Below, piece after piece: positions 1 through 63,456 of a DNA stretch of 64,000 bases. This DNA is from Bolinopsis microptera (Eukaryota > Ctenophora > Tentaculata > Lobata > Bolinopsidae), in NCBI RefSeq assembly GCF_026151205.1, contig NC_087083.1, forward strand, positions 8,119,460 through 8,183,459. The letters run 5' to 3'. The notes under the pieces were generated by a model. That model searched no databases and was not told the DNA's origin. It saw only the letters and a list, made by a program, of their open reading frames with translations. The translations under genes were made by a program, and so were the position numbers. Positions within the stretch are counted from its first letter, which is position 1. Each line of letters starts with the position of its first letter.

Positions 1-3000
1 TAGGAGGACTATAAGTGACCAACTCTGCCCAGCTGAGGTAATCTGTGCTCCACCGTGGCGAGAAACTGCCTGAATAGAAAAGGTAATTAAAACAATATAT
101 ACATTCAAAGATTCAATTATCAGCGCTTTTCCGTAGAGAAAATCGATTATAAGCGCTTATTTTTTAACCGCTTATAAGCGCTTTGTATGCGTTGATAAAT
201 GGTGTATTTTCGGAAAAAACGCCTAAAAAGCGCCTAAAAAGCGCTCAGTAAGCAATTATAAGCGACAACGAGAAAATTTCATTTGTGGCAACTTGCCTGA
301 ACTAAGTGGTGGTGCCCCATACTTTGATAACTCAGTAATTATTCGCTGTTGCCAGTTGTTTATTAGTTCTAGTGCTGCTTTTGAGAATTCTTGGTCACCT
401 TTTTCGGATTGTCGCCTCTGTAGTTTGGTTTGGAGTTACGTTGAGATTTTTATATTTGGTAATTAATTGTAAAATAATGCAAATTTATACTAATTTTACA
501 GCTGTAAATAATGCATCTATCATTTTGTTAAAATACACCATAAACTATAATATACGTGCAATGGTGGCCTGGCTTGCTCTTCACAATAGGTAGGTGCTCT
601 TTCTAAAAAGAATCTTAAAACTATCTCTCAGGGGAATCCCTGCTATATTTTAATACTTACAAATTAATTCTTTAATTCAATAATTAATTAATTACAATTA
701 ATAATTGTGACACATTTACTAACGTGAAAACGCCGCTTGAACTTATGTTGTCGATTGAGATTCGTTATTCTTTTCTCCAACAAATTTTTGATAAAACCAT
801 TCACATACTCTTTGCTGAGTCTATTTTCTGTATTTTTAAACTCCTCACTGTCCTGAAGGTTTTAATATTACCTTATATGGTAGTGTCCCTATGGTAACTA
901 TATATTACCTTATATGGTAGCTAAATTTCACCGAGACTAATTTGGATGCATTTATACCTCGTAGAAAGTTAATATACTGACATCCAATTTATACTTATTA
1001 TAGTGGGAAAAAATGGGGTTCAAAATTTGATTTAGAAAAATAACTGAGGTAGAAAAAGAAATCCATATAAATAAGAAACATTTTATACGAAACAGTTTTT
1101 TTAATTCACCCTATCAAAAGAGATGTAAAATGATTTGAGGTGTAAAATATCCTGATTAAAAAATAACCATGTATTTGAAATGTAAAATATCCTGATTAAA
1201 AACTAACCATGTATTTGAGATTTAAAATATCCTGAATTAAAAACTAACCATGTATTTAAGGTTACCTGGTTACCTGGTTACCTGGTTACCTGGTTACCTG
1301 GTTACCTGGTTACCTGGTTACCTGGTTACCTGGTTACCTGGTTACCTGGTTACCTGGTTACCTGGTTACCTGGTTACCTGGTTACCTGGTTACCTGGTTA
1401 CCTGGTTACCTGGTTACCTGGTTACCTGGTTACCTGGTTACCTGGTTACCTGGTTACCTGGTTACCTGGTTACCTGGTTACCTGGTTACCTGGTTACCTG
1501 GTTACCTGGTTACCTGGTTACCTGGTTACCTGGTTACCTGGTTACCTGGTTACCTGGTTACCTGGTTACCTGGTTACCTGGTTACCTGGTTACCTGGTTA
1601 CCTGGTTACCTGGTTACCTGGTTACCTGGTTACCTGGTTACCTGGTTAAAAACTAACCATGTATTTGTCAACAATCTTTAGCTTCTTCTCGTTAATATCT
1701 TCCTCCTTTACATTTTCCCACTCATTTGTATTCTTATATTCACATACTACATGCTCAGTTTTCTCCGCTTTTATACTATCAATCTGCAAATAAATTATAA
1801 TATATCTGTACATGACAGTAACACCCTGATTTACAATTTGTAGTTTGTGTGCAGGGGTTTGTGTCGGCAAATGACCTCACAGGAAGTTCGGTGACCATCT
1901 AGCGCACCGTTTCCACACCAAACAATTTTTATTTGAGAATACCTATTTCTGTAATCGTGCATTTCCTGGTTAAAGTGCATTTTTCAGAAAAGCACAATAT
2001 GTTTTGTTTTGAAGGCTATAAGTCAATCATTTCTTGTGATATCGAACTGAAATGTTACACGAAGTTTATTCATATCTTATTCAAGATGTGTGTAAAATTT
2101 TGATATATCTGAACAGGCTGCGTTTTTATAAAATTTGTTAAGTCAAAAAGTGGTAATTTTACTTTTCAGGCTTGTTTTGACCAAGTTCGTCAAGAAACAT
2201 CGGATTGTTTTGACAGTTGACATGAAATTGTTCACTGAATTTTGCCGCAGTTTTTGATGCCCTAAAAATGTGTTTATTCAACTGGAAAGTTGATCTTTTG
2301 GACATCAAAGCCAAACAACAAATTTAGGCATATTTTTCGGTTTCATATTTACAGATTTTTCTAACATTTCGATAGGAATGTGCTAAAGACTTTCGAAAGA
2401 GTGCAAAATTACCGAAACTAGCACATTTATATATGAGTTATGAATAATCAAACACCCTAAAATGCTTCCTTTTAAAGTTATGGTAGAAAATGTGATTTTT
2501 GTATCTGCAAACCCAAGCATGAATTTCGCCGCGGTTACACCACGCAAGATCAAATTTCCCTACAATGTAATTGTTGTATTGCATCCCAGAGTGCTAGTGG
2601 TGTTTGGCGCACGTTATAATCGTTTTTATCATATTAGCTGGCCAAGCTTGGTACAATCAGTGAATCCACTTTGAAGTGTCCAATTCCACAATCCTACATC
2701 AAGCGTCAAATCGACAACAAAGTCAACAGACTGAATCAGGAAACTTGGTTAACTGACGGTCCCAGACACACCAAACTGACACTCGGCCACAAGCACGCCA
2801 AAATCATCAAAAACCTCAACACTACACTCAGCAACAATAGACAAGATTACAGAACTGCAGTTCACCTCATCACGGGTCACTGCGGCTTAAACAAACACCT
2901 TCACACCATTTGCAAATCAAACACCAGTGCTTGTCCTATGTGCGGCGACGGAGAGGAAACTGTCTCACACTTCCTTGGACAGTGTCCGGCTATTGCCCAA

Positions 3001-5006
3001 ATTAGAGGTCAATATTTCCAGGACTACTACCTCTCTGTCAATGACATATTCGACAACCAACACATCACCACGATTGTCAATTTCGCAAACCGCACCAAAC
3101 GCTTAATTGTGCCGGAAGAGCTGGATCAGACCGGGGTGACTTAAAGTATTATCTCAAATGCTGTCTCGTCTCGTTTTACTTTTCCAAACCCACTGGGTTT
3201 GGAAAAGTAAAACGGTTTAACCCAGCTGGCATTTAAGCGTATCATTTTGACTCATATCACTTCTTACAGTTACACCATCCTCCACCATTCACTCTGATTT
3301 CACCGGCAACTTTCCCCAGGGTTGCCACACCCCAGAGGTAGGCAGAGCATCTCAATGCTATCCTCTCGTGGGCTATCTTGGCCCAGCCTCTCTTTTTTTT
3401 AAAAAGAAAAAAAAAAGGCGTGAACAAATTTAAAACTTTGACGCGTCACGTCGATTTGGGGTTTGGTTGTAGAACACTTCATATTTTTCGTGGTTTTGTT
3501 TTGTGTTAACAATGCGTACATCATGTCACGTCATATAATTATTGTTTCGCACGCAAACTTTATTGACTGTTATATAATATTCCGTCTCATCTTAGTTATT
3601 ATTTGAATCTAACATTAACTAATAAATTTTGATGCTAGATGGTCACTAAACTTCCTATGAAGCCATGAGGTCATTCGGGCTGGAAATTTTTGGTGTATGC
3701 CCACCAACTAAAGGTGCTGTGAAGTATTACTGTAATTAATTGATAAATTTCAGAATTGATGAAGATGTAGACCATCGAAAATATTTTTGTGTGATTAACT
3801 GCTTGTTTCATTTGTTGAGCTCGCTAGTGGAGGAAAAACAGAATTTTCACCTACCATTAGGTATCAACATTATAACTGTAGTACTATCTCAACTGACGTA
3901 TACCGACTCAAGGTTCCGTGAAAGTTGGGGAAATGTTAGCGTGATCTATAATTTACATAGTTACAATGCATTTTTCATGATTCGAACTGTACCACCGGAC
4001 ATAACCGGACTTAGTCGGACTGAACCGGACTTAGCCGGACTGAGCCGGACTTAGCCGGACTGAGCAAGACTTAGCCGGACTGAGCAAGACTTAGCCGGAC
4101 TGAGCAAGACTTAGCCGGACTGAGCCAGACTTAGCCGGACTGAGCCAGACTTAGCCGGACTGAGCCGGACTTAGCCGGACTGAGCCAGACTGAGCCGGAC
4201 TGAGTCAGACTTAGCCGGACTGAGCCAGACTTAGCCGGACTGAGCCAGACTTAGCCGGACTGAGCCAGACTTAGCCGGACTGAGCTGGACTTAGCCGGAC
4301 TGAGCCAGACTGAGCCGGACTGAGTCAGACTTAGCCGGACTGAGCCAGACTGAGCAAGACTTAGCCGGACTTAGCCGGACTGAGCCGGACTTAGCCGGAC
4401 TGAGTCAGACTTAGCCGGACTGAGCCGGACTTAGCCGGACTGAGTCAGACTTAGCCGGACTGAGCCAGACTGAGCAAGACTTAGCCGGACTGAGCCGGAC
4501 TTAGCCGGATTTAACTGAATTCAGCTGGACTTAACTGAATTCAGCTGGACTTAGCCAGACTTAGCCGAAATAAGCTAGAAGTTAATGACACAATAACAAT
4601 GGTTGAAAAAAGTAAAAAATCACCTTGTAACCCTTTTCTATACACTCCAACACTTCATCATTGGAGCTTTGACAGCTTTTCCAGGCTTTAGTTTTCTTCA
4701 CAGACTGGGGTAAAGAGCTCAGTACGCCGTGACAGGTCGGATCCTCCTGAATTAAACGGATTAAACGATTCAAAAGTTAAATTACAATGGTAATGGCTGA
4801 CCCAATATAAAAAGTAAATTTACCCAAAAGTATATACAAGAAAGAAAATTGGAAACACCATAATATAATAAACAAAAAATACTTCCCACAAATTTGTTGA
4901 ATGAGGTAAATAAAAAATAACTCTTCTAAAAGTGTACCTGGATATCCCCTGCTAGCACCACCTGATGGCTCCAGGATAAGAGCAACAAAACAGACACGGT
5001 CAGCAT
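1..5006 (-). CDS. Unidentified secreted protein gene, 3' end outside window
   Basis: I do not recognise the product. Exon 1 (4938-5006) starts with ATG and codes a 23-residue signal-peptide-like stretch (MLTVSVLLLLSWSHQVVLAG, then DIQ). Exon 2 (4624-4746) codes 41 residues with three cysteines (CHG, SCQ, ECI). Exon 3 (1658-1783) codes 42 charged residues with one cysteine. A probable fourth exon (1-69, starting AVSRHGGAQ) runs off the window. All junctions are phase 0 with AG acceptors; donors are GTACAC, GTGATT and GTTAGT. The large intron between exons 2 and 3 holds a 10/20 bp repeat array and a transposon carrying a LINE fragment. The exon 3 donor is copied several times downstream (see 1129-1657). 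That exons 2, 3 and 4 belong to one gene is inferred from strand, phase and order; exon 1 to exon 2 is the firmest link. Confidence 0.5.
1129..1657. repeat. Donor-derived repeats around an 8 bp array
   Basis: The core (about 1259-1647) is roughly 48 near-perfect copies of GGTTACCT. It is bracketed by copies of a longer motif, which on the minus strand reads AAATACATGGTTAGTTTTTAA. That motif is the 3' end of exon 3 of the secreted-protein gene (ending at 1658) plus its GTTAGT donor. Further imperfect copies lie at about 1165-1185, 1205-1225 and 1240-1260. The 8 bp expansion therefore sits between duplicated exon/donor junctions. Confidence 0.85.
1866..3690. mobile_element. Degenerate TIR transposon interrupted by a LINE fragment
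   Basis: The ends are imperfect inverted repeats: left about 1868-1905 (AATGACCTCA, then AGGAAGTT, then GTGACCATCTAGC) and the reverse complement at about 3638-3685. The interior at 2515-2580 and 3420-3515 matches, in the same order, the dispersed repeat at 51207-51515. A LINE 3' fragment separates the two halves. No transposase ORF is visible. It is a non-autonomous DNA element or relic. Confidence 0.5.
2650..3415 (+). mobile_element. 5'-truncated LINE (RNase H/zinc-knuckle 3' end)
   Basis: A 157-residue reading frame (2671-3144) carries the C-terminal region typical of I/Nimb/jockey-like non-LTR retrotransposons: a TGHCGLNKHLHTI helix followed by a CPMC-x7-HFLGQCP CCHC-type motif. About 270 bp of 3' UTR follows, ending in a T-rich/A-rich tail at 3390-3416. 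The reverse transcriptase part is absent, so this is a dead 5'-truncated copy. A short palindrome at 3181-3215 (TTTTACTTTTCCAAACCCA and its complement) lies just after the stop. It splits a DNA transposon relic (1866-3690), so it inserted later. Confidence 0.7.
3985..4570. repeat. 10/20 bp minisatellite (TTAGCCGGACTGAGCCAGAC)
   Basis: About 58 units of a 10 bp motif alternate between TTAGCCGGAC and GAGCC(A/G)GAC, forming a higher-order 20 bp repeat that degrades toward 4500-4570. It lies in the large intron of the secreted-protein gene, 55 bp beyond the exon 2 donor (4624). It is not obviously donor-derived. Open frames across it are repeat artefacts. Confidence 0.9.
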
Positions 5007-7019
5007 TTCAAATGGCGGGGGATGGGTCACTTTACATAGGTAACATAAGTAACATGGGTCACTTTACAAGCATTAACATGTTTGTTGCTGCTATAATTGA
5101 TTTTCTATCGGCTTGTTCTGAGAACGTTGAGATTCCTATTTGACAAATTAAGTCGTGAGGTATTGTTCCGCCATTTTGAAAATTAATGTTGATCTGACCA
5201 TTATAGCTTTATAGGTAGCACATACTGTTAAATCGATTTCATTGATCATGCAACTATTTTTAGTGTGCTAGCCGGGCTTTAAATCTGCAGAAGAATGTAA
5301 AAAAGATGAGAATAAATCTTAGGTTTTTAATTTTGGTCATCATAAAAATATATTTTGTTTGTTAATTTATGAAAATTGTAAATTTGAATTTTAAAAGAAT
5401 TTACTTTCATAAAATATTTTTACATTCAAAATAAAAAACGTATTAAAAAAATCGTTAAATGAATACAAAGTGTTACAAAAAATTTTATAAAAAACTTTAT
5501 GCTAACACGGCTCAAGCGGTACAAGCGGCTCGTCACAGTTTCATCAGGTTCCACTCTTAACATCAATCAAACCATATTAGGCTCCCACGTTTCACACTTC
5601 TCATTGGTCAGTACGATTCCCGCCATTTTCACTCCACACTAGATACATACCTACACACTTCACGTCATGCACCTGTTCACCGTTGTAGAACTCCATGCTT
5701 CTGTATCATGTGTAGTTTATTCAGTAGTAGTTTTAGGAATGTACAGTATTTACTACAAATGTTTGTCGTCGTATAAACTAATTTTGTTATGAATTTTGTT
5801 ATGACTTTTTTGTATCGAATTTTTGGATAAATTTGATTGATTAAAAATAAATAAATTTACACAAATTTTGCCTCAGATATATGTTTTTTACGTTTTGCAT
5901 TTTTAACACTTGTTTTTAGATCATGAATACGATGTAGTTACATTGAAACGTCGAGTAAACTCCTTTCCCTAATAAGAGCATTTTTACTTGTCGCAACAAC
6001 CGGGATAAAGATAATTTTACACGGAATACATATTATGTCTAACTTCTATGTTAATCCTACGATACATTATATATATTGCTTTGGAAAGTTGTACAGCACG
6101 GTTTTGTTATAATATATAAACATTTCCCTAGAGTTATCATATAGGTAAAAATTATTCCGTTAACTGTAAAGCAGAAAGTAAACGATTTCACAAAAGCTTT
6201 GAGAGAGAAAGAAAAAGCTGTATAAAAATGGAAAATGTACGTCCTAATAATAAGGACGTACTGCCTACCTGCCTAGGTCGGTCCAGATGAAATCTGGAAC
6301 GAGTTTCGTGTCAGCGCATGTCTCCATTTATCTCTATCACTCATGAGCAGACGTATCATGTTAAGTTGTCTAGCTCGATGAAATATAGATAAGCGGGTGC
6401 GTGGCAAAAAACTTTGCGAGTACCAAGGTATTGCTAGAGCCCACTAGCATCAGAAATTAGGTGTTTCATCCACATCTCTAGAAGTATTGTACCTGTGTAA
6501 TCAATTACTACTGGCTGATATTTGAGCTGAAAGTTAATTCTGGTCCTATCTGTACAACATGTTAACATTTTATCATGTGATATGATCCTGTATCTAGCCC
6601 GTTAGAACTCATAAATAAAAACTACTTAATTCTTTTACCTGCAAATATAGAAAATATTCCTCAAATGGCATAATCGCAGCTTAGTCACACTGTTATTTAT
6701 TAACGCATATCGGAGAGATGTGTACAATAATACGAACAGTATATTGTGCAGTTTAGACTAATGTAGGTTTAGGTGGAACAGGTGGGGTAGTGGCCGGGGG
6801 GGGGGGGGGGAGAGGGGGTATCTCTTTTGTTTAGACTCGCTATCTGTCGGACAGTACTATTAAACTACGTCAGTTGATCTGACGATATTGGTTTTTCTGT
6901 AGAGATGGGTGTATTTTTAGATAGCCTCTTTGAAGGCGAAGTCTTAAAGATGGAACAATCAAACACATTATATTATTAAAATGATGTGCTCAATATTACA
7001 ATTCAAAGTCACGTGTTCA
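5007..7019. other. Intergenic AT-rich DNA, no gene seen
   Basis: This separates the 5' end of the secreted-protein gene from the 3' end of the GPCR gene, both on the minus strand. I find no exon-like frame, RNA gene or long repeat. One G run of about 14 lies at 6797-6810. The region should hold the secreted gene's promoter and the GPCR 3' UTR, but I cannot assign elements. Confidence 0.5.
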
Positions 7020-8072
7020 CTATAAAGCTGTGTCCTGATTGGCTGTCGGGTTCCTGAAAGTTATCCCCTCCACCACACTAGTCGTCTCTATAGCTGGAAG
7101 ATTACCTGAGGATACTGGTACCAGCTGGTGTAATCCTGGTACTGGTGGTCGAACAGGATTAGAAGTAAATTTACCTCTTCTCATTCTACTGCCACAAAAT
7201 ACAATCTTCCTTGCAAGATCCTGAACGTACTTTCCAAATCTTCTGTTCGTTATTGTGTACAATATTGGGTTGCCACAGACATTAAGAAATATAAAGTGAA
7301 ATGCCATGAGGTCCATAGCAGGAGACACTTTAATTCCTTGGCCTTTGAGTAAAGTAACCACCGCAAACGGGGCAATACTACAGATGAAGAGACCAGATAA
7401 GAGTAAAGTGGTGATCAAACCTTTCAAGTTAACGGAACTGTTTGGGCTGTGTCTCTTCTTTTGTCGATAAGCCACCAAGAGTAAAATCAAGTTGAAAACT
7501 GTGATGAGGATAATGGGTACTATAGCCTGTAGGATGAGTGCAGTCCCCCATAAAGGGGCAGCATCCTGATTTGTATAAATTGTAGTGAGGCATTCAGCAC
7601 TCGCAGGTACAAACACAAAATTGGACTTGTAGCCTAAAGATATCGCTGGTCCAGCCATCGCGAAAATCCAGATCATTAAAATAGCTAGATGAATGGACCT
7701 CTTTGAAATTACATGGAATGGGGAAGCAATCATTCTGAGTCTGTAGGCTGATATTGCCAGGACAATGAGGCTGTTTGCACCGCCAGAGATGAACGGCAGA
7801 TGAGCGCTGATGAAGCAATAGATGTCACCCATAATGTACCTCCCTGCGAAGTAGGTGACAGTGATAGGTATCACCGCCACTATAGTGTATAGCATATCCG
7901 CCACTGCCAGGTTCCTTACCAGTACAATGGAGATCCGGTCTAGTTTTATGGCGTTATACCGGATAGATGAGTAGACGACGAGGCCGTTTCCAACCAGACC
8001 CATTATTACAACCAGCAGGCAGAATGTTGCCAGGGGAACCACTTGTGCTGTGCTCAGCGTCAACTCCAACAT
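7020..8072 (-). CDS. Class A (rhodopsin-like) GPCR, single exon
   Basis: A 350-residue intronless receptor with seven hydrophobic segments. TM1 has the GN motif (VGNGLVVY), TM2 has NLAVADML, and TM3 begins after a cysteine (YCFISAH) that can pair with the ECL2 cysteine (AECLTT). The end of TM3 reads SAYRLRM, so the acidic residue of D/E-R-Y is replaced by Ala while the Arg is kept. TM6 has a relaxed CSIAPF in place of CWxP. TM7 has GNPILY (NPxxY), followed by an amphipathic NRRFGKYV helix. The N-terminus is short, without a signal peptide, which suits a small-ligand or short-peptide receptor. The ligand cannot be told. The start is the first ATG before TM1. Confidence 0.9.
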   Translation of the reverse strand: MLELTLSTAQVVPLATFCLLVVIMGLVGNGLVVYSSIRYNAIKLDRISIVLVRNLAVADMLYTIVAVIPITVTYFAGRYIMGDIYCFISAHLPFISGGANSLIVLAISAYRLRMIASPFHVISKRSIHLAILMIWIFAMAGPAISLGYKSNFVFVPASAECLTTIYTNQDAAPLWGTALILQAIVPIILITVFNLILLLVAYRQKKRHSPNSSVNLKGLITTLLLSGLFICSIAPFAVVTLLKGQGIKVSPAMDLMAFHFIFLNVCGNPILYTITNRRFGKYVQDLARKIVFCGSRMRRGKFTSNPVRPPVPGLHQLVPVSSGNLPAIETTSVVEGITFRNPTANQDTAL

Positions 8073-8627
8073 TCCTCCTTATCTAATTATAATGATTTGT
8101 TCAAATTAGGCAATTTTAGACAAGATTTACTACAACAGCTTGAGAAAGAGTAACGAGCACTAAAAACAAATAATTGATATTCCGTGGATATGAAAATATC
8201 ACCATGTTCGTGTCCCTCGACGTGACGATAAAAATGATGCGAAGGACAAAGGACGAAGGTGCTAGCAGCAGCTGCAGCCGATGCTATTAAATACGGAGTG
8301 CTCAAGGCAATCGTACAAATACGAAAAAAAACATTTCTTGCCGATGGAGGATTAACTTGGGGCCATATGTCCGTGGGGTCCCTAAATTTCGGTAAAATTA
8401 ATATAGATAATACACTTTTATAGAAAATTGCCATAAATGTTTGCGCAGATGGTTCCATAAATCAGTAAAACTATCGCACTATCTATTAAAATTGAAGACA
8501 ACAACTCTCACTTGATAGTTGATGGGTAATTTGGATTCTGAACAAATAATCGATATAGCTCTGTAGTCGATGCATTACGGAAAATTTGAAAATGTTGAGT
8601 ATCGGCAGAAGACAACAACTATAACAA
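8073..8627. other. Region 5' of the GPCR gene
   Basis: This presumably includes the GPCR promoter or 5' UTR. I see no clear TATA box, conserved motif or exon. The short open frames here have no recognisable domain. Confidence 0.4.
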
Positions 8628-8859
8628 GGTCAGGTGATCAGGTGATCAGGTGATCAGGTGATCAGGTGATCAGGTGATCAGGTGATCAGGTGATCAGGTG
8701 ATCAGGTGATCAGGTGATCAGGTGATCAGGTGATCAGGTGATCAGGTGATCAGGTGATCAGGTGATCAGGTGATCAGGTGATCAGGTGATCAGGTGATCA
8801 GGTGATCAGGTGATCAGGTGATCAGGTGATCAGGTGATCAGGTGATCAGGTGATCAGGT
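8628..8859. repeat. 8 bp array (AGGTGATC)n
   Basis: About 29 almost perfect copies of AGGTGATC lie between the GPCR 5' region and the TRPM2 3' end. Each copy junction contains the palindrome TGATCA. No adjoining exon is visible, so I do not count it among the donor-anchored arrays. Confidence 0.95.
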
Positions 8860-9251
8860 TTTCTTCTGCTGCTGCTCAGCCTCCCCCGATTATGTCATGT
8901 TGGTAATCGCACTATATACTTATATAGTTCTAAAACTTCTAAAATTATTATACATCTGAATGTAGGTGAAAAACTTATAAATTTCCATTATCCATCTCAA
9001 ACACCATGAGTAGTGTGTGATAGACTGATAGAGTCTTTAATCCTATAGCACCATGAGTCGTTCGTAATGGAGTTTTTAACCCTATAGCTGAACGGTACGT
9101 ATCGCATCTCGTAATCCATTACGTGCCGTCTACAGCTGCAGTACGTGCCATCTAACTATAATGATGACTGTATCACGTACTCAGAAAGTGCCGTATAGGT
9201 TAAACAAAGACTCCATCTCATAATCAATTACGTGCCGTATATCTGGAGTCT

Positions 9252-42252
<33,001 letters not shown>

Positions 42253-43325: not shown

Positions 43326-43519
43326 ATAATTAACTTGTGAATAAATATTATTCGTTACTTTTTATTCAATAATTTATTAAAATATTAAATTTATTCGAAT
43401 AGCTTACATGTAATAATGTAATATCCGGATTGAAACATTATCTATTAATCGCATAACGAATAGCGTACACTTGCACATGAGCCTATAAATACTATTTGTT
43501 ACGTCATTAAATTAACTCG

Positions 43520-48535: not shown

Positions 48536-51500
48536 ATGAGCAGCCCAATGTTTTGGAACATGATGACGATAATTGCTGGACTTAGCATGCTGCTGATGAT
48601 TTCAGGTGAGTTTCAGAACCTTAAATAAGTTGGATTATAGATGGTTTGACTAAATTAGTATTAGTAAACTGTGAGTCACAAATCAAAACTCCGATTTAAC
48701 GTACCATATACCCAAATAATGGTATATATATATATATAGACTACCTATAAGTATAGTAAATATAATATACATTTTATATACCAGATACCGCATTGTACTA
48801 ACAAATTTCTTCTCAGATGCTGAAATCCAGTGTATACAGGGAGCTAACAGCACTGCTCCTTTCGTTAATTGTCCTGTCGGTACTGTCTCCTGTTATAGGT
48901 ACGTTATCAATTAGTTCAATTAGTTCAATAAGTTCAATTAGTTCAATTAGTTCAATTAGTTCAATTAGTTCAATTAGTTCAATTAGTTCAATTAGTTCAA
49001 TTAGTTACTTGAAAGCTTCCAATCGTATCTTCTTTTCGTGGTTATCCCTGATAAAAAGGCAGCGAACTAAAAAGAGCATGGAAGGGTCTTAGAACTCGGC
49101 AAAATTTCTTTATTCGCGATTTTATCTTCCACAGCTGCTCACCACAAATTGTGAAGGGCCTGAACGGAACCCCTCGGTTTCAGTTCCTTGTTTAAAACTG
49201 TCGTACAGCAAGGACATTCACCGCGGTCGCCAAAATATAGTGAGATAGTAGTGTTGAAAGTATTATGATCCAACTATCAGTATTTCATCATGAGACTAAT
49301 AAACTAAAACAGCGAACTACTCCAACATTTGATATTTATATGCGCAATAGTGACATTAATATGCGGGTACAGGGTATTGTTTTGAACGGTCTTAGAAGGG
49401 AAATAGTTGTATATACCATGGGTTATAATTATAATAGTACTACAACATTATTTGGCTGCCGTGCTTTTATACGTTTTTTTGTTCCAATCTGGAACGATTA
49501 ACAACTAAGTTATCACTTAACTTAACTAAGTTATTATTTAGCTTAACTAAGTTATAACTTAACTTAACTAAGTTATTACTTAACTTGACTTTATTATTAT
49601 AACAAATCTCATGATAAGCTAAAATAAATAATTAAAAATTGCGTTGGTTTTTAAAATAACCATGAAACTAAACCCACTGTCAGGCCCAAGCTAACAGAGC
49701 ATGTAGGGTTTGCCAGCGGAGTGGATTACGGATGTGGGCCGTGTGACCCGGAACTCTCGTTTGAGTGTGCGGAATGCAGCGTGTCCGGGTGTAACCAGCC
49801 ACCAGGTTAACTTTTCTACTGTATTTTTCATACGCCATTACCACATGTTGTTCGATTTACTTTGTACTTGTTAATGAGTGTTTTCTGATGTTCCAGGTGA
49901 GCGACCACGTGCTATTACTTATTATAAATACCTTACTTCACCTGTAGTGCTGGAGGAGAGTTACTCGTGCTACAACTACAAAGTAGCAGGAGGTGCTATC
50001 ACCAGACACCCAACTCTCACCACCTGTTGGAGATCTAAAGGCTCAGCTATCACCTGCAACATGTAAGTTTAGGTTATCTGAAACACTAATTGGTCACTAA
50101 TTGGTCACTACTTGGTCACTAATTGGTCATTAATTGGTCACCACCTGTTGGAGATCTGAAGGTACAGCTATCACCTGCAACATGTAAGTTTAGGTTATCT
50201 GAAACACTAATTGGTCACTAATTGGTCACTAATTGGTCACTAATTGGTCACTAATTGGTCACCACCTGTTGGAGATCTGAAGTTACAGCTATCACCTGCA
50301 ACATGTAAGTTTAGGTTATCTGAAACACTAATTGGTTACTAATTGGTCACTACTTGGTCACTAATTGGTCACTAATTAGTCACCACCTGTTGAAGATCTG
50401 AAGGTACAGCTATCACCTGCAACATGTAAGTTTAGGTTATCTGGAACACTAATTGGTCACTAATTGGTCTGACTATGATGCTCTAAAAGTGATACGCTAT
50501 CTTTTCATTTGCACAGATCACCATATCATATGCATATGTTGGCCGTGATCAAAACAGTTTGTATTTTCTGCTTGATAAATTTGTCCAAACGTGACCTAGC
50601 AATCGTAACTTGATGACAAATTTTAAACAAAATGTCATTTATAGTTTATACGTGATGTTTTAAAAACTTATCATCGTGCAATTTTACTTTAAACATTTTT
50701 ATGAATGCAGGCAAATAATTATTACTTTAATATTATAAAGAAAGCCTATTCCGAACATATTCTGAGAATTGAGAACCATTGCTTTGTAGGCGCTGTAAAG
50801 TCTATACTCATCTGAATATAAATTTAGTCACAAATCATAATGTTACGTTAATCTTTAGAATTATAATGTATAATTTTTATAATGCTTAATGTTACACTTT
50901 CTCTGATAAAGAATTAAGGAAGCTGAGTAGAAGCATATGAGAAATGGTAGATTTGAGTTTATTGGTCACTAATTGGCCACTTATTAGTCACTAATTGTCC
51001 ACTAATTGGTCACTAATTAGTCACTATAACACTGTTCTATTCAGGCCGGCCAGTACAGCAGATTACAAAAGTGTTAGTGGTTGTGGACCATGCGGGGAGA
51101 CAGCAAAAGAACGGGGGACATGTGTAGAATGTTATTCAGACTCTTGCAATCAGATCGGTGAGAAATCAATCAATTTGCATAACTTAATTAAGATTGAATT
51201 TAACAAGAATTTCGCCGCGGTTACACCACTTGGTCATTTCGTGTTAAATTCCTGTTAAATTCCACCACGCACGATCAAATTTCCCTACAATGTAATCGTT
51301 TTACTTAAATTGTAATCAACCGTAAGCATTTGAACCCCCCCCCCCCCCCCCCCCCTCGGCTGATTACGTAATATGTGAACGACCCCATATTAGGCGTACA
51401 AAACTTGAAAATACTGCACGCATCTGCAACGTGTCACCGTCACGTCGATCTGTGGTTTGGTTGTAGACCATGCACTTCATATTTTGCGCGGTTTTGTTTC

Positions 51501-52589: not shown

Positions 52590-53345
52590 TTCTTGGTTAC
52601 TAGTTGCTAATATGAGCGGGATATAAATACTTTGTTATTATTATTATAAAGGGTCTCAATAAGAGGTCTCGACTGCATAGGCGTCAAACCTTGGCAGTCG
52701 GTAGTTTTCCTCTGGCCCGGGATCAGCTGACCCTAGGGACCAGAGGGTAAAGGTGTAGAGACTATGTGTATCTACAAATCTTTCGAGGTTGTTTTTACAA
52801 GAGACAGGGCTTGCTACGCAAGGGAAGAAAACCGGGAGAAACAATCACAAATTATACAAATAAATATTATAAAACCTAGCAAAAAGAAATTCAAACAATC
52901 CTACACTACTACAAATGTTTATTACATACTACAATGTAATACACGATAAATAAATGCTGTATAAACAAGAAACAGGGCTTGCAGGGCAAGGGACGGAACA
53001 CAGGGACTGGCTACAGAGTGTATAAAACAGTGATTCAGCAAGTACCCATTGGGTATTGCTGAATCTGACCCACAAAATACCACAATCAATACAAGAATAT
53101 ACAATATTTAAACAAACATCATGTTTATACAAGAATCAGGGCATGCAGAGCAAGAGAAGAAAAATAAGAGAAAAACTCCAACACATGTATACCCCTTAGT
53201 CCAGTAAATAACAATAATTACTTGTACACAAAACTGTATAATATAAAATACATAACAAATACACAGTCTACCCAATATACGGGTTAAAAATTGTATAAAC
53301 AAGAGACAGGGCTTGCATAGCAAGGGAAGAGATATAAGAGGACCA
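52590..53345. repeat. Retroelement tail and four copies of a 165-180 bp repeat
   Basis: TGAGCGGGATATAAATAC followed by TTATTATTATTA (52612-52650) resembles a LINE/SINE 3' end; a related TGAGCGCGGTATAAATAC lies at 62309. Then ACAAGAGACAGGGCTTGC plus GCAAGGGA recurs at 52797, 52969, 53128 and 53297. No gene is visible between 51784 and 54811 apart from these. Confidence 0.55.
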
Positions 53346-54811
53346 GGTAAAAAGTGTTTATTACAGTATCCAGTGAAGAATAAACTAAATATAAAGTATC
53401 TACAGTGTATTATACTCTCATTAATTATTATTATTATTATTAATAGAATTATTCTAAACCATAATCTATTGTTCACAACTTATTTGTTTAAAGAAAATGA
53501 GATAATGAGAAATATCAAAAGCGAATTTGAATTAAAACATATCGTTTCATTTTTTTAAACCTGTGAGAATGCGAGGTGGTTAAATTAAATGAAGTTGAAC
53601 TAATTACCTATTCATAAATTATTTGGGTTTTGGTTAAACATGCATGGAACAGTTAAATTTTGAATATAGTTTTATTCATAATAATCGAGGATTTAAACTT
53701 TAAATTTTCAGCCAAAATTGAAAATTAAAGGTAGGAATTGACTAAATTTACTATTTAAGGTGGCCCACAAATTTCCTTTATGATAATTGCTTTTACTTAT
53801 ACTCCAACCCCAAATCACTTCCTCAATGGATAAACGAAAAAAGAGGTCCGAAAAACTTTGAACCGACAATTATATTATAGGCATGTTCAGTATTTTTGAC
53901 TGGATCAACTAATAAAGAATTTTGATTACTATACGTTGTTTGTCTAGCTTATGAATTGCAATTGTTTGTGTAGTTACGTCACCACGACGAAAATGAGTTT
54001 GTGACAAATTTCCAGCTTTATCAATTAAGCTGAAAATATCCATATAATAAGAGCAATAAGAGTGAAACGTTGGCTATAACAATGGATTTTGAAGTCTTTG
54101 GTTTTTATTAGTTCACTCACCAGCGCACTATCCTGTAATTGTGGGGTTTGAAGCCGAACGAAGCAGCCGCCAGTCTTGAAACCCAAAACTATTACTCAAC
54201 CCTGACACAAACCAAAATCTCGAAGCTTGATTGACGATGTCAATCCATCGAGATCGTTGCTCTGCGAAGCAAGAATGCTAGTTTGCGCGGCGCGTCGAAG
54301 CGGCGAAGTCCTCCAACTCGAAGCAAACCATAACCCTTGTAGTAGGTTTATATCATGTAATAAGCGGTTTATATTATGGTTTATATTATGGTTAATATTA
54401 TGTAATAAGATTAAAGAGTTGGATCATCAGATTCTTTTCTCCAATGTTGATAAACTGGTTGCCAAACAGCCAGCCAACATGATTCACGTCACATCATGTC
54501 CACATATATAAAGATATATATAAGCTGAAGTTATAAAACAACGTAAAAAGTCTCCACTTCTCATATCTACGTTTGGGCTGTATGCAGCTGCTGTCTGTAT
54601 CACATTTTAACCGGTGTAGTTGTCATGGTAACCACATCTCGTGTTCATGTTAGAGAGAAGCTTTTCTATCGAGCTCAGGCCAGATTCAAACGTATTTCAT
54701 TTTGTTTGATAAACATGTTTTTTTTATTTCGCGTTTGTTTCGTTTTTAAACCTCACTATTATAATATAAGTTTGCTATGTTAACGTAATAAGAGCATTTA
54801 ATTTCACAGAG
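53346..54811. other. Intergenic AT-rich DNA before the K2P gene
   Basis: No confident exon. A GC-richer patch at 54120-54340 has unusual CG-rich words (GCGCGGCGCGTCGAAGCGG) and may be an old repeat. The K2P promoter should lie near the right end. Confidence 0.4.
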
Positions 54812-57800
54812 ATGAGCAGCCAATCTCTGGTCTGCCCCAACAGTGATGATGATCAGGCTGACTGTAAGGTAGGACAACATTTCAACAATGTTCCTTATTT
54901 TAAACCATAGCACAATAACAACAAGATGTGTCAAAATCTTCAAAAACAGAAACGATCTATAAAACTGGTTAATTTTTAGGTTGTTTTGGTTGTGATGTTT
55001 GCTATGTCTATATTAGTATATTAATTGTATCATTATTAATTACATTGCTAATTATGTCTATATTGTTGAGTATTTATATTACAAGCTGGATTCGTCTGCA
55101 ATCGTCTATAAACCATGAAAAATAAATCTTGAATTGAAAATAATTCAACAATCAGGTTGTAACAGAACAAGTACCTTTGACGCAGGTTATCCTGCCTAAA
55201 GCAAAGTCTGAGGTTAATACTTATTTCAACTATTTATTATAGTATATTATATATAGTATATTATATATTATTGAAGATACTTATTTTACTTCGGCTTATA
55301 TTGTAACCAGGAGGCGAAGATGGATCCTGGTTACACCCTGGTTACACCCTGTTTACGACCTGGTCACAACCTGGTTACAACCTGGTTACAACCCTGGTTA
55401 CACCCTGTTTACACCCTGGTTACACCCTGGTTACACCCTGGTTACACCCTGGTTACACCCTGGTTACACCCTGGTTACACCCTGGTTACACCCTGGTTAC
55501 ACCCTGGTTACACCCTGGTTACACCCTGGTTACACCCTGGTTACACCCTGGTTACACCCTGGTTACACCCTGGTTACACCCTGGTTACACCCTGGTTACA
55601 CCCTGGTTACACCCTGGTTACACCCTGGTTACACCCTGGTTACACCCTGGTTACACCCTGGTTACACCCTGGTTACACCCTGGTTACACCCTGGTTACAC
55701 CCTGGCCCTGGTTACACCCTGGTTACACCCTGGTTACACCCTGGTTACACCCTGGTTACACCCTAGTTACACCCTGTTTACACCATGGTTACACCATGGT
55801 TACACCCTGGTTACACCCTGGTTACACCCTGGTTACACCCTGGTGACACCCTGGTTACACCATGGTTACACCCTGTTTACACCCTGGTTACACCCTGGTT
55901 ACACCCTGGTTACACCCTGGTTACACCCTGGTTACACCCTGGTTACACCCTGGTTACACCCTGGTTACACCCTGGTTACACCCTGGTTACACCCTGGTTA
56001 CACCTTGGTTACACCCTGGCCCTGGTTACACCCTGGTTACACCCTGGTTACACCCTGGTTACACCCTGGTTACACCCTAGTTACACCCTGTTTACACCAT
56101 GGTTACACCCTGTTTACACCCTGGTTACACCCTGGTTACACCCTGGTTACACCCTGGTTACACCCTGGTTACACCCTGGTTACACCCTGGTTACACCCTG
56201 GTTACACCCTGGTTACACCCTGGTTACACCCTGGTTACACCCTGGTTACACCCTGGTTACACCCTGGTTACACCCTGGTTACACCCTGGTTACACCCTGG
56301 TTACACCCTGGTTACACCCTGGTTACACCCTGGTTACACCCTGGTTACACCCTGGTTACACCCTGGTTAAACCCTAGGGAACTGGTACGGTTTAGGAAGC
56401 ATAGTATTACAGGGTAGGCCAAAAGTATGTAACGTTACTTTTGGCCCACCCTGTATATATTTACATTACTTTGTCAAAGAGTCCAAGGCTTTGCTGCACC
56501 AATAAATTCGTAGTGTTGTTTTTCGTTTAAATCATTTTTAGTTATTCCGTTTGTTGCTACAAGGAAACATGCTATTTATATATTATCAGGAAGAGGAAAT
56601 AGATAAGTTATAAAAACACACTTTTACAATTTACAGGGTAATATAGGCTTGGCAGGTCCAATTAAACGCTTAGCTAACGAACAAAATGGAAACAAGACAT
56701 CTTTCCGGCACTCTGGCTATCAATTCTTTGATAATTTCAGTGAGTTTACCTTTATTTTGTTCTAAGATGTAATGCATAACTTTATCAACCAATAAAAATA
56801 CCCTGCACTATTATAACAGCCAACAATAACGATATCATCAAGATAAACCCATTTTAATTGAAAAGCAATCTATTACCTAAATAAAATACTCTAAGACATG
56901 ACCTTTTACTGTAGGTGACTCCGAGAACGAATCTACTGTTCTGTCAGACATCCAGGAACCAGTTATAACAGAAGATCAAGAAGTGGAGCCTGAAAATACT
57001 GTGAGTTTATGAAATAGAACTATAACAAATGTTCATTTTAAAGATCATCTATGAAGTTTTATGATTATTTGCAATTCCTGTGGCAGGGATGATATTGACT
57101 TACGTTAAAATATATTTTGCCAGTAAATGTGCGCTTTCGAGGGTTAATGAATGAATGAAATTGAACGCTTTAACCCATATAATACCAACAACTCTAAACG
57201 TTCGAATTTTTTGATGAAATTTTGTTTCCTAAGCACTAAGACACCAACTCCGACGATGCAATAATTATTTTGAAAAAATTTATATTTTTTATAGCTTTTT
57301 CGACCCGTACTTTTAAAAGTTCATTGTTGGAGCTTACTTTTTTGAAACATTGCATCGTACTTTTAAAAGTACATCATATTTGAATGATGTACTTTAAAAA
57401 GTACGGGTTTAATGAATAATGTACTTTTAAAAGTACGGGTTTAATGAATAGTGTACTTCTGGAGGTACGTTACTTAATTAAACAGAAACTCAGGGTCAGA
57501 TAATAAAACTAAAAGCCCTTGTCAGAATGGCTGAATAAAATTTAAACAATACATACAAAATTTAAGTGGTACACTAAACAAATCGTGATGGTGGGAACAG
57601 CTATACTTATAAACTACTATCATAATTCCATTTACCAATTTACTAGAATTTTACGAAAATTTTCAGGTTTCGTGCTTTTTACTCTAACTGATTATAAGTC
57701 TAAGGATAAACAAAGCACACAAAGTGCAACGTCACACACTTCACACTTAGCCAAACGCTTTTCACAACTTAAAGAATACCGAAAATGGTGAGAATGAGAA

Positions 57801-60800
57801 GAGAGTAGCAGAGGCTGAGACAATTCTAGAGGAATAGAAGAAAGTAGCAGAAGCTGAGCGTGTTCTAGAGGAGCAAAGGAGAGTAGCAGAAGCTGAAAGA
57901 GTTCTAGAGGAACAGAAGAGAGTAGCAGAAGCTGAGAGAGTTCTAGAGGAGCAGAAGAGACTAGCAGAAGCTGAGATAGTTCTAGTGGAAAAGAAGAGAG
58001 TAGCAGAGGTGGAGACAATTCTAGAGGAACAGAAGAGAGTAGCAGAAGCTGAGCGTATTCTAGAGGAACAGAAGAGAGTAGCAGAAGCTGAGAGAGTTCT
58101 AGAGGAACAGAAGAGAGTAGCAGAAGCTGAGATAGTTCTAGTTGAAAAGAAGAGAGTAGCAGAGGTGGAGAGAATTCTAGAGAAACAGACGAGAGTAGCA
58201 GAAGCTGAGAGAGTTCTAGAGGAACAGAAGAGAGTAGCAGAAGCTGAGCGTATTCTAGAGGAACAGAAGAGAGTAGCAAAGGTGGAGAGAATTCTAGAGA
58301 AACAGACGAGACTAGCAGAAGCTGAGGGAGTTCTAGAGGAACAGAAGAGACTAGAGAGTAGCAGAAGCTGAGCGTATTTTAGAGGAGCATAAGAGAGTAG
58401 CAGAAGCTGAGAGAGTTCTAGAGGAACAGAAGAGAGTAGCAGAGGTAGAGAGAATTCTAGAGAAACAGAGGAGAGTAGCAGAAGCTGAGAGAGTTATAGA
58501 GGAACAGAAGAGAGTAGCAGAGGTGGAGAGAATTCTAGAGAAACAGACGAGAGTAGCAGAAGCTGAGAGAGTTCTAGAGGAACAGAAGAGAGTAGCAGAA
58601 GCTGAGCGTATTTTAGAGGAACAGAAGAGAGTAGCAAAGGTGGAGAGAATTCTAGAGAAACAGACGAGAGTAGCAGAAGCTGAGAGAGTTCTAGAGGAGC
58701 AGAAGAGAATAGCAGAAGCTGAGCGTATTCTAGAGGAACAGAAGAGAGTAGCAGAAGCTGAGCGTATTCTAGAGGAACAGATGAGAGTAGCAGAAGCTGA
58801 GAGAGTTCTAGAGGAACAGAAGAGAGTAGCAGAGGTAGAGAGAATTCTAGAGAAACAGAGGAGAGTAGCAGACGCTGAGAGAGTTATAGAGGAACAGAAG
58901 AGAGTAGCAGAGGTGGAGAGAATTCTAGAGAAACAGACGAGAGTAGCAGAGGTGGAGAGAGTTCTAGAGGAACAGAACAACTCAGCTGAGGAAATGCATA
59001 GACTACAAGGAAAGGAATCTTATGTTGGAACAGCAGATTGCTGATGGCACACAATCATGTCAGTATTTAATAGTTAACATACATTGGAGTTCGGAAACCA
59101 GTTACAAGATCTAGGATTGTGAACATTAAGCGGGGGGGGGGGGGGGTTATCAGGTACCAAGTTGAGAAATCACGGTACTGACTGTGTTTTGGTATATAAA
59201 ATAAGATACCCTCCCATAAATTGCTTTAAACAGCTCATTAAACATTGGGAAATGGACAAAGTATACCCACTATTTAATAGGGGTTTTGTTTCCAATGCAG
59301 TCGAATTAAATAAAAAGTTACAAAAAAAGGAAACAAAATTTTTAAAAAACCCAAAAAAAAGGAAAAAAAAGTCAAAACCCAAAAAAACCCATTCCCAAAA
59401 TTGAAATTTGAGGTAAAATGGATTTTTGGGGTTGGACACCCCCTTAGTACCTTGTACTAACTGATTTTCTGGGAAATGAGCAGCAGACCCACCACTTATT
59501 ACAAAAGTACTAACAGTAACTGTGTTTTGGAAGAAAATATGACCCACCCCCCGCATTAAGTAAGAGTATATTGAAGGCCGCTCTGCAAGACGCGGAATAA
59601 CCGGGAGAAAACGTGGATCCTTCAAGATCGACTAAATCCCAGAAGTCACAACAGAAAGTTTCTGTTGTGACTTCCGTACTGATTCAGAACAATTTACCTG
59701 CCATTACAGTCTTACCGACGTTAATCATGCCAGCACACATTGTGTAGTCTATATAAATTATAAACCTGTACTTTTAAAAGTACATTTTTCGTGAAACCTG
59801 TCCTTTTAAAAGTACAATATTTGAAGATAATGCACTTTTAAAAGTACGTACTTTTAAAAGTACATCATTGTCTAGAATGATGTACTTTTAAAAGTACACC
59901 CAATTAACATCTCAATTAGAGGCAATTTATGATTTTTATGTCGCCCCACATTATTGCCTATTTATTGCACAATCGTTTAGGCAATATTAAAAAACCAAAT
60001 TTGGGATCTATCAAAGTTGGAGAATTGGCTGGTGGTACCGAGGATTTACCATTTTTCAAAGTACCATTTTTGACCACCTTTGCCAACATCCTATAAATTT
60101 CTTGCTTTTTTTACCCATCTGGCCAGGGTGTTAAAATCATCAACAGACCTTTTCTAACCTAATGCAAAAAACTGTATTAAAAAATATTTGTCACGAGACA
60201 AGTTAGGTCACTGTTTATGAACCGTACTTTTAAAAGTACCGTGGAAGAATATGGGTTAAACAACATTTTCTTCTACTTGGATCAGTAAGTCCAACTCTTC
60301 ATACATTTCAGCAAGCCATCAGTGTGTTCTACTCTATTTTAATCCTTGTGGTAAATGTAGGGTTCATCTTAGCCGCTACTTTTGTCTTCATGATCGTCGA
60401 AAACAGGGTAAGATCTTAAACTTAAAGAATCAACAAAATTAAAAAATACAATAGCCCCCCCCCCCCCCCCCCCCCCCTCGGCTGATTACGTAATATGTGA
60501 ACGACCCCATATACAATAAGCGTACTCATCCACTAACCACTTGGTAATATAAAACTCAAAACTGAAAATATTGCACTTGCTAATAGGGGGAGACGAAAAG
60601 GAACGCTGAGGCGTACGAAACACTTCAACACTTTGAAGGACATATAGACAATGCAACCAACATCCTTGCAGGTTTGTATTTATACATGCGTGTGTATGTG
60701 TTCGAGTGTGTGTGGGCATTGAATCGATTTGCTTGAATCTCAAAAATGGTGAGCTAAATGCCAGTTTTACAGGTTCTAATCCGAGGTATAAGAGCTATAA

Positions 60801-63456
60801 GTATAACTTTAGGTAGTGAGTTATGTAAAATTTAAGGGTACAACTGGATTTGGAGGAGTAATTATAGGGCCTACGAAATATTTTCCGCCGGTATTTTGTC
60901 GAGCTGAACATCCTGTACCCTTTGAACAACCCCGATTTCAGTTTGAGAAATTACCACGTTACAGTATATAAACCTATTTATTAAACATATTTATAGTATA
61001 ATAGTAGTTACTTATTGACCAGAGTTGCTGACACTGCAACAGCAGATGTGCAGAAAGAATAACGACAGAGTGGGTAATGATTGGGTTTTCTGGGGATCAT
61101 TCCAGTTCTGTAACACCGTCATAACAACTCTTGGTGGGCAACTGTAGTTATTGTTTCAGTTAAGCGTCTTACTTCAATATCTGTCATTTTTAGGCAAAGT
61201 TTAGATTTCGGAGTTATAAATTCTAAAATTTTAACTTTTTTATCTTCCTTATGATATAATTATATGTATATTGTCCTCAAATATATCGTCCTTCTTATAT
61301 TATGATAGTACTCACACCATTTTGGTTAAAAACGCTTATATCCTAATTCATAATTCCTATATATGTATACAATGTATACAATGTATACAATGTATCAGTA
61401 TACAATATATGCGAGTAAAAATCGCCCCTTCGTTTAGGATACGGTCTAGTGTACCCCCACACAGCAATAGCAAAGTACATCACCATGGTGTACGGTCTAT
61501 TTGGAATACCCATATATCTCTGCTACATCGCCTACTTTACGGATTATGTGCTGCTAGGGTTGGATGCTATCAGGTGCTGCATACAGCGCTGGACACAGTA
61601 AGTGTGTTTATTATGTGCTGCTAGGGTTGGATGCTATCAGGTGCTGCATACAGCGCTCGACACAGTAAGTGTGTTTATTATGTGCTGCTAGGGTTGGATG
61701 CTATCAGGTGCTGCATACAGCGCTGGACACAGTAAGTGTGTTTATTATGTGCTGCTAGGGTTGGATGCTATCAGGTGCTGCATACAGCGCTGGACACAGT
61801 AAGTGTGTTTATTATGTGCTGCTAGGGTTGGATGCTATCAGGTGCTGCATATAGCGCTGGACACAGTAAGTGTGTTTATTATGTGCTGCTAGGGTTGGAT
61901 GCTATCAGGTGCTGCATACAGCGCTGGACACAGTAAGTGTGTTTATTATGTGCTGCTAGGGTTGGATGCTATCAGGTGCTGCATACAGCGCTGGACACAG
62001 TAAGTGTGTTTTAAGGGACGATTTCACGCCTCTTAAACGCCCCTTAAAAACGTTTAATACTTTTAAGTTAAAACAAAGACATTCTAAAATATATCTCTAC
62101 TTATTGTTTTACATTCTACAAGTACAACATGTACCCTATTTTACATTCTAAAACATGTGCCCTATTTTTATGTTCACGTGATTAGTATTAGTAAGCTTTT
62201 ATTTTGTAAATTAGATATAATTAGTTAGGTAGACAAATATATGTATATTTATATAGAAGAGCAGTTCCAACATCAGTTATTTCATATTTTCAATTTGTAT
62301 TCTTGGTATGAGCGCGGTATAAATACACTGCTTCTTTTTTATTTTAACTATTCTAAGTCACCAAGTAGCATTAAATACGTTTTCTTGCAGCTGGAATTGG
62401 ATGGTAAAATCTCAAATCCGAATAGCTCTCATGCGATCTCTGTTCGCCACAATTTGTCTTTTTATTTACATCGGTGAGAAAACTTACTTAAAATGATTCC
62501 CAACACCCGATTTTATTGATGGAAGTTATGATTTGATACAATAACAATAATTCAATTACATTGATTACAATGATTACAATGATGACAACGACTACAATGA
62601 TTACAATGACTACAATGACTACAGTGTATCGTTTACAGCGGTACACTTGTGGGTAGTATACCCTTCCGAGAGGGACTGGGAGGAGCCCCACATGAAGAGA
62701 TCACTAATGCAAATGTTCTATTGGCAGGTAAGCAAGTAAATAAAGTCAAATTTTATTAATATTATGTACAGTATATATTATTACGTATATACAGAGACTG
62801 TTGGACGTTGGTAGTATAACACCCTACCAACGAGATACAGATATTATATATATATTATTACTATTACTATAAAATATATTACTATTTTACCATTTTGTTA
62901 TTCCTGGCCTCATACCGTATAAGCTTTTTGGATCATGGTGTTAATCGTAGTGACAACCGACGTTATTAATTTCTGACAGAATTTCACTCAATTTCCTCAG
63001 ACGATAAGGTTTACGACTATTGGTTTCGGTGATATTGTGGTGCTGTTGGGACATGAGATCCCCAAGCTGATGTCCTCTACTTTACTGGGGCTTCCACTTG
63101 GGATTTGCTGCATGAACGTTTACTTTTCAGCCATCAGGTTGTTTTTTAATAAAACAATTATTTTTTAATTGAATCTATCGAATTTTTTAATTGAATCGGT
63201 CCTTCCGAGTACGTAGATGTTTTTGAGAACATGTATCAATTAACAACTTTAGTTAAAAGAGATGCCTGACTCATCACATAGTATGTTTAAATATTATACA
63301 AATTTATCGATTAATTCTAATTTAATAATTAGTTACATAGTATGTAGTTTATAATAAGCTGGATTTTATCCCAGGAGTATGTCTGGCACAAAGATGTTCC
63401 AAAACTCTACTGTTTACGAAAAGTTTAGGTCATGTTGCGGCAGAAAACAACAGTGA
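54812..63456 (+). CDS. Two-pore-domain K+ channel (K2P/TWIK-TREK family)
   Basis: Thirteen exons join in phase (1176 nt, 391 residues): 54812-54868, 55156-55212, 55311-55340, 56637-56739, 56915-57000, 60312-60407, 60587-60671, 61023-61133, 61438-61597, 62391-62473, 62639-62727, 63001-63137, 63375-63456. The first five code an acidic soluble N-terminus. TM1 is ISVFYSILILVVNVGFIL with the following VENR. The cap helix region carries one Cys (QQMCRKNND). Pore 1 is FCNTVITTLGYG, split by an intron inside the filter (L|GYG). TM2 is YGLFGIPIYLCYIAYF. TM3 is ALMRSLFATICLFIYI. Pore 2 is TIRFTTIGFGDIV. TM4 is LLGLPLGICCMNVY. The C-tail is short and basic. Exon 3 is uncertain because it merges into the 11 bp array, and skipping it keeps phase. 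A polyA signal AATAAA is at 63687. Confidence 0.9.
55326..56372. repeat. 11 bp x 95 array (CCTGGTTACAC) at K2P exon 3
   Basis: The array starts within the end of K2P exon 3, and every unit holds CTG|GTTACA, a possible donor of the GTTANN type this region uses. Because 11 is not a multiple of 3 and the unit has no stop in any plus-strand frame, long frames run through all phases. Sparse variants (GTTTACACC, CCATGG, CCCTGGCC) mark a duplicated sub-block (about 55690-55860 and 56015-56115). Confidence 0.93.
57305..57470. repeat. Cluster of GTACTTTTAAAAGTAC palindromes
   Basis: Full or near copies lie at about 57307, 57357, 57390, 57420 and 57454, all in K2P intron 5. They are separated by short repeated text (GGGTTTAATGAATA). 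A second cluster lies at 59768-59890 with one more copy at 60225. Confidence 0.88.
57785..58985 (+). repeat. 39 bp x 30 array encoding a 13-residue coiled-coil-like repeat
   Basis: The unit reads RVAEAERVLEEQK in one frame, with V/E/K variants (RVAEVERILEKQT). It is multiple-of-three and mostly open: the frame is broken by a TAG at 57834 and an insertion near 58350, then open to a TGA at 59041. The block sits in K2P intron 5, and splicing it in breaks phase, so I do not include it in the channel. It may be a decayed coding exon, a pseudogene or a noncoding minisatellite. Opposite-strand Leu/Ser-rich frames are shadows. Confidence 0.75.
59768..60240. repeat. Second cluster of GTACTTTTAAAAGTAC palindromes
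   Basis: Copies lie at about 59768, 59803 (one base changed), 59828, 59844 (fused head to tail with the former) and 59880, and a lone one at 60225. All are in K2P intron 5, after the 39 bp array. Confidence 0.88.
60454..60580. repeat. Dispersed repeat with C run
   Basis: A C run of about 25 followed by TCGGCTGATTACGTAATATG and GAACGACCCCATAT, matching 51333-51410. It lies between K2P exons 6 and 7. Confidence 0.75.
61547..62010. repeat. 67 bp x 7 array from K2P exon 9 end plus donor
   Basis: The last 51 bp of exon 9 (V-L-L-G-L-D-A-I-R-C-C-I-Q-R-W-T-Q) and the donor GTAAGTGTGTTTATTA repeat seven times, nearly identical. Only the first donor (61597/61598) keeps the reading frame; read-through meets TAA at once. 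Confidence 0.96.

Follow-up and report, generated by a model that had tools for sequence, protein, structure and literature searches.

Intronic tandem arrays of the ctenophore Bolinopsis microptera were found to run across exon/intron boundaries, with copies that include exon sequence and a splice site; both donor and acceptor boundaries were involved, and copy number differed between paralogs. These arrays are probably mirages (at a probability of about 0.7), i.e. minisatellites from short tandem duplications that spanned an exon/intron boundary by chance, the copies being tolerated where the outermost site is used.

Sequence sample and gene models

The window was the whole analysed stretch of 64,000 nucleotides (C12:8119460-8183459), for which Tandem Repeats Finder (TRF) returned 66 rows. 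Genome-wide counts were made on the 264.65-Mb assembly of 232 contigs, in which the chromosome-sized C1-C13 amounted to 258.07 Mb (97.5%). The unselected sample consisted of 21 10-kb loci, of which 14 lay at round and 7 at random coordinates. Arrays made up 15.1% of the 254 kb formed by the window and 19 of the loci; of the two later loci, one had a retroelement-like model only and the other had no model.

Genes in the loci were modelled by a self-trained gene finder that exactly recovers 19 of the 21 TRPM2 exons. Pfam-backed models were obtained in six loci [Cep192 (L015), Sec16 (L018), BTB-BACK (L023), C2 (L026), tubulin (L013), and EamA (L010)], and the model in L027 was a zinc-finger protein by reading. 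The median predicted intron was 266 bp (n = 102).

An array was classed as donor-anchored when its start lay at most 3 bp beyond the exon end, and expectations were taken from uniform placement. The 19 loci held 24 arrays in predicted introns, of which 21 were kept; the dropped rows were two in L016 (doubtful or coding repeat) and one in L011 (retroelement). Rows entered by hand from the sequence were six from upstream TRPM2 and three from L023; the test on TRPM2 covered the recognised introns outside the long upstream region at about 38900-29500.

Arrays in the TRPM2 gene

A TRPM2 gene of 21 exons was modelled on the minus strand at 20877-9685 (Table 1). When each array was spliced from its first donor, these exons joined into one open frame of 842 aa. 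AG preceded all 21 exons and GT followed the first 20; the end of the last exon at 9685 is uncertain, with GC next. The frame matched the structures 6co7 (TRPM2 channel, the best match, 2.3e-86) and 1q33 (ADP-ribose pyrophosphatase, 3.1e-64), and the 1q33 match spanned the tail of the frame. We take 6co7 to be a sea anemone protein and 1q33 to be human NUDT9. More exons upstream of 20877, TRPM-like by reading, were assigned to the gene. Since the open frame built from the first donors matches TRPM2 structures, the inner copies would lie within introns.

The donors in the 74-copy array were GTAAGT (44), GTGAGT (21), GCAAGT (5), GTAGGT (3), and GTGAAT (1). By column variability, the inner GT of this array (T/C 69:5) was no more conserved than the other columns. 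The second copy of array 19500-19643 reads GATAGT and has lost the GT donor. At 16802-17018, a (CT)n run separates a TRPM2 exon from the next copy of exon tail and donor. A large inverted repeat was seen by eye at 22160-25700 (about 22200-22650 versus 25280-25700), perhaps a transposable element within a TRPM2 intron.

Table 1. Positions of the TRPM2 exons and of the tandem arrays. Positions refer to the window unless a locus is named; a slash marks the exon/intron boundary.
Feature	Position	Strand	Unit and copies	Remarks
TRPM2 exons 1-7	20877-20753, 20616-20458, 20071-19937, 19796-19641, 19223-19071, 17150-17034, 16521-16429	minus		open frame
TRPM2 exons 8-14	16088-15891, 15701-15569, 15273-15096, 14455-14283, 14076-14001, 13882-13770, 13561-13434	minus		open frame
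TRPM2 exons 15-21	12846-12736, 12552-12405, 12177-12057, 11881-11827, 11724-11607, 9944-9868, 9769-9685	minus		open frame
TRPM2 donor array	10127-11619	minus	20 bp, 74 copies parsed	unit AGGAGGCGCTGG/GTAAGTGG; starts 13 bp inside exon 11724-11607
TRPM2 donor array	14206-14302	minus	32 bp x 3	starts 20 bp inside exon 14455-14283
TRPM2 acceptor array	14451-14904	minus	34 bp x 13.4	copies with ...AATAACCAG/GTATG, last 5 bp exonic; ends at acceptor; absent from the original prediction
TRPM2 donor duplication	16752-17063	minus	30 bp exon tail + 16 bp intron	identical either side of (CT)n; first donor 17033, second 16768
TRPM2 array at donor	19500-19643	minus	47 bp x 3.1	starts 3 bp inside exon 19796-19641; absent from the original prediction
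TRPM2 donor duplication	20393-20516	minus	62 bp x 2	59 bp exonic
TRPM2 array	20883-21225	minus	31 bp x 11	stops 5 bp short of the acceptor of exon 20877; copies without exon sequence; not counted as anchored
TRPM2 array	40556-40656	minus	41 bp x 2.3	three GTAAGTTnCTTCT copies; flush with upstream donor (exon end 40657, by reading); absent from the original prediction
Array on putative exon 1783-1658	1133-1783	minus	8-bp array 1260-1648; 40-bp copies 1133-1257	donor 1657; 40-bp copies with exon tail and donor AAATACATG/GTTAGTTTTT
Ly6-like gene donor array	50017-50469	plus	121 bp x 3.7, nested 11-bp repeat	46 bp exonic; exon 49897-50062
11-bp array	55326-56375	plus	11 bp x 96	no exon end at edge
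K2P donor array	61543-62011	plus	67 bp x 7	55 bp exon tail + 12 bp intron; exon end 61597
Cep192 donor array	L015:3231-5235		43 bp x 46.7 (TRF)	
Cep192 donor array	L015:2119-2541		9 bp x 46.6	
Cep192 acceptor array	L015:7312-7963		69 bp x 9.4	
BTB-BACK donor array	L023:4036-4145		54 bp x 2	
BTB-BACK locus acceptor array	L023:2293-2411			
Tubulin donor array	L013:7435-7477			

Other arrays of the window

The K2P gene was identified by Pfam Ion_trans_2 (4.8e-7). An inverted paralog of its segment, at a distance of about 470 kb (C12:8652516-8656604), carried 23 copies of the 67-bp donor unit, compared with 7 in the window. The flanks of the paralogs were 99.3% identical downstream (1048 bp) and 89.5% identical upstream (732-column alignment), and the copies in both carried scattered substitutions, with different variants. 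The array thus expanded or contracted between paralogs, not alleles.

That copies were created or inflated by expansion errors of the assembly is highly improbable, given these scattered substitutions and the differences in copy number and variants between the K2P paralogs. Such an error has a precedent in the amphioxus BflGb6 mirage, which a passage of PMC3087553 describes as misassembled in the draft genome; for lancelet PGBD5, the part of PMC3902484 on re-sequencing spoke against it.

The 76-aa fragment of the Ly6-like gene had no Pfam match, and the Ly6 label is by reading. The putative exon 1783-1658 also had no Pfam match; at 1260-1648, a (GGTTACCT)n run separates it from the next copy of exon tail and donor. 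Other features of the window were a coding tandem array at 57838-59044, whose 39-bp unit encodes a 13-aa coiled-coil-like repeat (a similar repeat was present in L021), a 352-aa stop-to-stop ORF on the minus strand at 7020-8078 with the look of a seven-helix receptor, and retroelement-like ORFs at 2638-3144 and 35075-36172 (RNase H-like tail; gag-like), the last two items being judged by reading.

The original prediction had listed eight arrays with exon tail and donor at exon 3' ends. Seven of these stood, one of them on an exon without homology support. The eighth, 55326-56375, was rejected as a donor array, as inspection by eye placed no exon end or donor at its start, and the copy number of about 95 that had been given for donor arrays fell with it. 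The statement that the arrays begin exactly at an exon end was imprecise: six start 13-59 bp inside the exon and two lie no more than 3 bp from its end. An automatic tally of the window gave eight arrays (4 donor, 2 acceptor, and 2 inside), where the acceptor case 17949-18023 depends on an exon missing from the hand model.

Arrays in unselected loci

Boundary arrays were also present in loci taken without regard to pattern (Table 1). In Cep192, the frame that uses the first donor spanned the 43-bp array within the Pfam Cep192_D3 match; in BTB-BACK, for which one exon was joined manually, the first-donor frame spanned the two-copy array inside BACK.

Nearly the same 48-bp tandem unit occurred on two chromosomes, at L016:4275-4599 and L028:7179-7543, so some arrays may ride on dispersed elements. 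In L029, arrays occupied 4012 bp of the 10-kb locus, including 53 bp x 35 and 17 bp x 74.

Placement at donors, acceptors, and random positions

Of the 21 intronic arrays kept from the unselected loci, 4 were donor-anchored (1.91 expected, P = 0.10), or 4 of 24 with all rows included (2.11 expected, P = 0.14), and 2 of 21 were acceptor-anchored (1.91 expected, P = 0.59). The recognised introns of TRPM2 gave 6 donor-anchored arrays among 15 (1.87 expected, P = 0.006) and 1 acceptor-anchored array (1.87 expected, P = 0.87); the part at 20877-9685 alone gave 5 of 9 at donors (P = 0.002). For TRPM2 and the unselected loci together, donors had 10 of 36 (3.78 expected, P = 0.002), with 15 of the 36 arrays from the selected gene, and acceptors had 3 of 36 (3.77 expected, P = 0.75). 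Because TRPM2 had been picked for its pattern in the original prediction, its figures and the combined ones exaggerate what holds in general. The 10 donor- and 3 acceptor-anchored arrays show that both boundaries take part.

A comparison of donors, acceptors, and random points had been proposed as a check on a preference for donors; in the sampled loci, random positions were locally duplicated more often than either kind of predicted site. In this crude scan, donors recurred downstream in 6 of 133 cases and acceptors upstream in 2 of 132, whereas 507 of 4000 random positions recurred. Of the six donor hits, the one in L016 lay at a distance of 904 bp and is perhaps an exon repeat. Duplication was thus rarer at boundaries than in DNA at large, which selection on exons would predict.

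Random placement of the arrays, with the donor look produced by chance and by the earlier reader's attention amid many arrays and short introns, would fit the unselected figures at both sites, the 15% of DNA in arrays, the median intron of 266 bp, and the excess of duplications at random positions over donors. We consider it quite improbable in view of the donor P values of TRPM2 and of all 36 arrays, though 15 of these came from the selected gene, and of the structure shared by the Cep192, BTB-BACK, and tubulin donors in unselected loci.

Three GGTAAGT motifs at 15-45 bp spacing were matched 4685 times genome-wide (17.7 per Mb, counted per match, so that one long array yields many), versus 42 matches (0.16 per Mb) for the backward control. 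In the 21 unselected loci, 210 7-mers of the same composition had a mean of 5.0 matches per Mb (95% interval 0.09-13.6; 13 of 210 above zero), and GGTAAGT itself scored 0. The backward control lies far under the 7-mer mean, and therefore the 110-fold ratio should not be taken for enrichment. The matches are also not independent, since among the C1 matches listed two units each occurred at two places. Among the 144 array units of 12 bp or longer, 5 held the donor motif GGTRAG, with 4.4 expected, and the motif was thus not enriched. Among low-copy arrays, the five at splice sites overshot a whole number of units by 0-5 bp, but the 18 rows were mixed overall and speak neither for nor against homology at the ends.

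A mutation process aimed at donors, in which co-transcriptional R-loops, nicks, or junction repair copy the boundary and seed arrays at 5' splice sites, would account for the donor excess in TRPM2 and in the combined set with acceptors at expectation, and for a genome-wide GGTAAGT density above the 7-mer mean of the unselected loci. It is nevertheless unlikely: TRPM2 was selected for the pattern and the unselected loci alone gave P = 0.10, acceptor arrays exist in TRPM2 and Cep192, GGTRAG was not enriched, and the GGTAAGT count is set against a heavy-tailed 7-mer control, a score of 0 in the unselected loci, and matches that are not independent. The donor-choosing mechanism of the original prediction was not demonstrated. 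It is likewise doubtful that, in this lineage, lesions coupled to transcription or splicing arise at 5' splice sites and actively seed the duplications, with introns lengthening outward from donors; were this true, dozens of near-identical donors per intron would force the spliceosome to choose by transcription order.

Reading frame and intron growth

Of 11 donor arrays examined, 9 had the second copy out of frame (at 19500, GT was also missing), and 5 had a stop ahead of the second copy; in two, L023 and L013, the second copy kept the frame. As the second copy is mostly frame-breaking, the first donor is in most cases the one able to give the homologous protein. We infer that the first donor is used in most arrays, and the open frames indirectly support regular mRNA splicing that is undisturbed. 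The suggestion that copies are tolerated downstream of the first donor fitted these data best.

The view that introns grow by duplication of the exon/intron boundary also found support. The 74-copy array took up 1480 of the 1662 bp of the TRPM2 intron after exon 11724-11607, and arrays in Cep192 took up 1983 of the 2184 bp of one intron and, at the acceptor, 637 of the 667 bp of another.

Under the mirage reading, short tandem duplications would arise at a high rate all over the genome. Short tandem duplications are known to result from repair where two nicks lie close together on opposite strands, and such paired-nick repair is our guess for the first step. Some duplications may then expand via slippage or unequal exchange. 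Selection would purge duplications within exons, and those crossing a splice site would survive if the donor made first (or the last acceptor) is the one to which the spliceosome commits, with all copies leaving as intron. Any donor excess over acceptors would come from better tolerance of copies at donors and not from a donor-recognising machine. Against tolerance stand the in-frame second copies in L023 and L013, the donor excess without an acceptor counterpart, which comes mainly from TRPM2 and which tolerance equal at both sites would not predict, and the 4685 versus 42 GGTAAGT matches, which could mean a real donor preference.

Comparison with known systems

Mirages have already been published in lancelets, where they were described gene by gene (PMC3087553, PMC3902484), and the phenomenon is not new. 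The passages on mirages in PMC3087553 concern Adh3, troponin C, and the globins BflGb6 and BflGb9, and those in PMC3902484 add PGBD5 and cite troponin C. As characterised in the former passages, amphioxus mirages are minisatellite-like tandem duplications over 5' or 3' exon/intron boundaries with units of about 10-160 bp; AG/GT is kept in many copies, the gene reads normally, and length is unstable between alleles and in somatic cells (PMC3087553).

The ctenophore arrays resemble them in boundary-spanning repeats with exon tail and donor (TRPM2, K2P, Ly6-like, Cep192, and BTB-BACK), in duplication of both 5' and 3' boundaries (acceptors at 14451-14904 and L015:7312-7963), and in minisatellite-like units, here of 20-121 bp, with splice signals in many copies. 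Variation in copy number was seen here between K2P paralogs (7 versus 23), and in amphioxus between alleles and in somatic cells. Unlike the amphioxus cases as described in these passages, copies reached 74 and 46.7 (3-6 in BflGb6), several arrays occurred in one gene (TRPM2), and the arrays are known from genomic sequence alone. The additions to what is known are a very remote animal, copy numbers that are very high, and the presence of several arrays within a single gene.

Introners are near-identical intron-linked repeats at many unrelated genes. This reading was rejected for the K2P unit, to which the check was confined: it had at least 13 matches, all at two places on C12 (the gene and its paralog). 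A human minisatellite was reportedly described in 1995 as supplying multiple splice donors; by the title of that report its donors are used in the transcript, whereas the inner donors here would mostly break the frame. Intron gain of the Rogers type, with GT and AG both within the duplicated segment, was rejected, as the copies in the donor arrays of TRPM2, K2P, and the Ly6-like gene do not include the acceptor; for the same reason no new intron is made.

In potato RdRp, a tandem duplication supplies splice signals, according to the relevant part of PMC4974935. That origin of the splice signals is the likeness to the present arrays, and the difference from the case as given there is that existing introns lengthen here. 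Among the ctenophore papers retrieved for tandem repeats, minisatellites, and introns, judged by title and the start of the abstract, none was on boundary arrays; the words intron and minisatellite were absent from one Mnemiopsis genome paper, and the ctenophore passages of PMC12221973 were not about tandem arrays.

That such arrays occur in a second animal, very far from lancelets, and several times in one gene, suggests that introns repeatedly lengthen, and possibly are gained, through boundary duplication. Natural introns holding as many as 74 donors that are nearly identical, of which the first would give the protein, offer a ready test of splice-site choice where the sites are equal.
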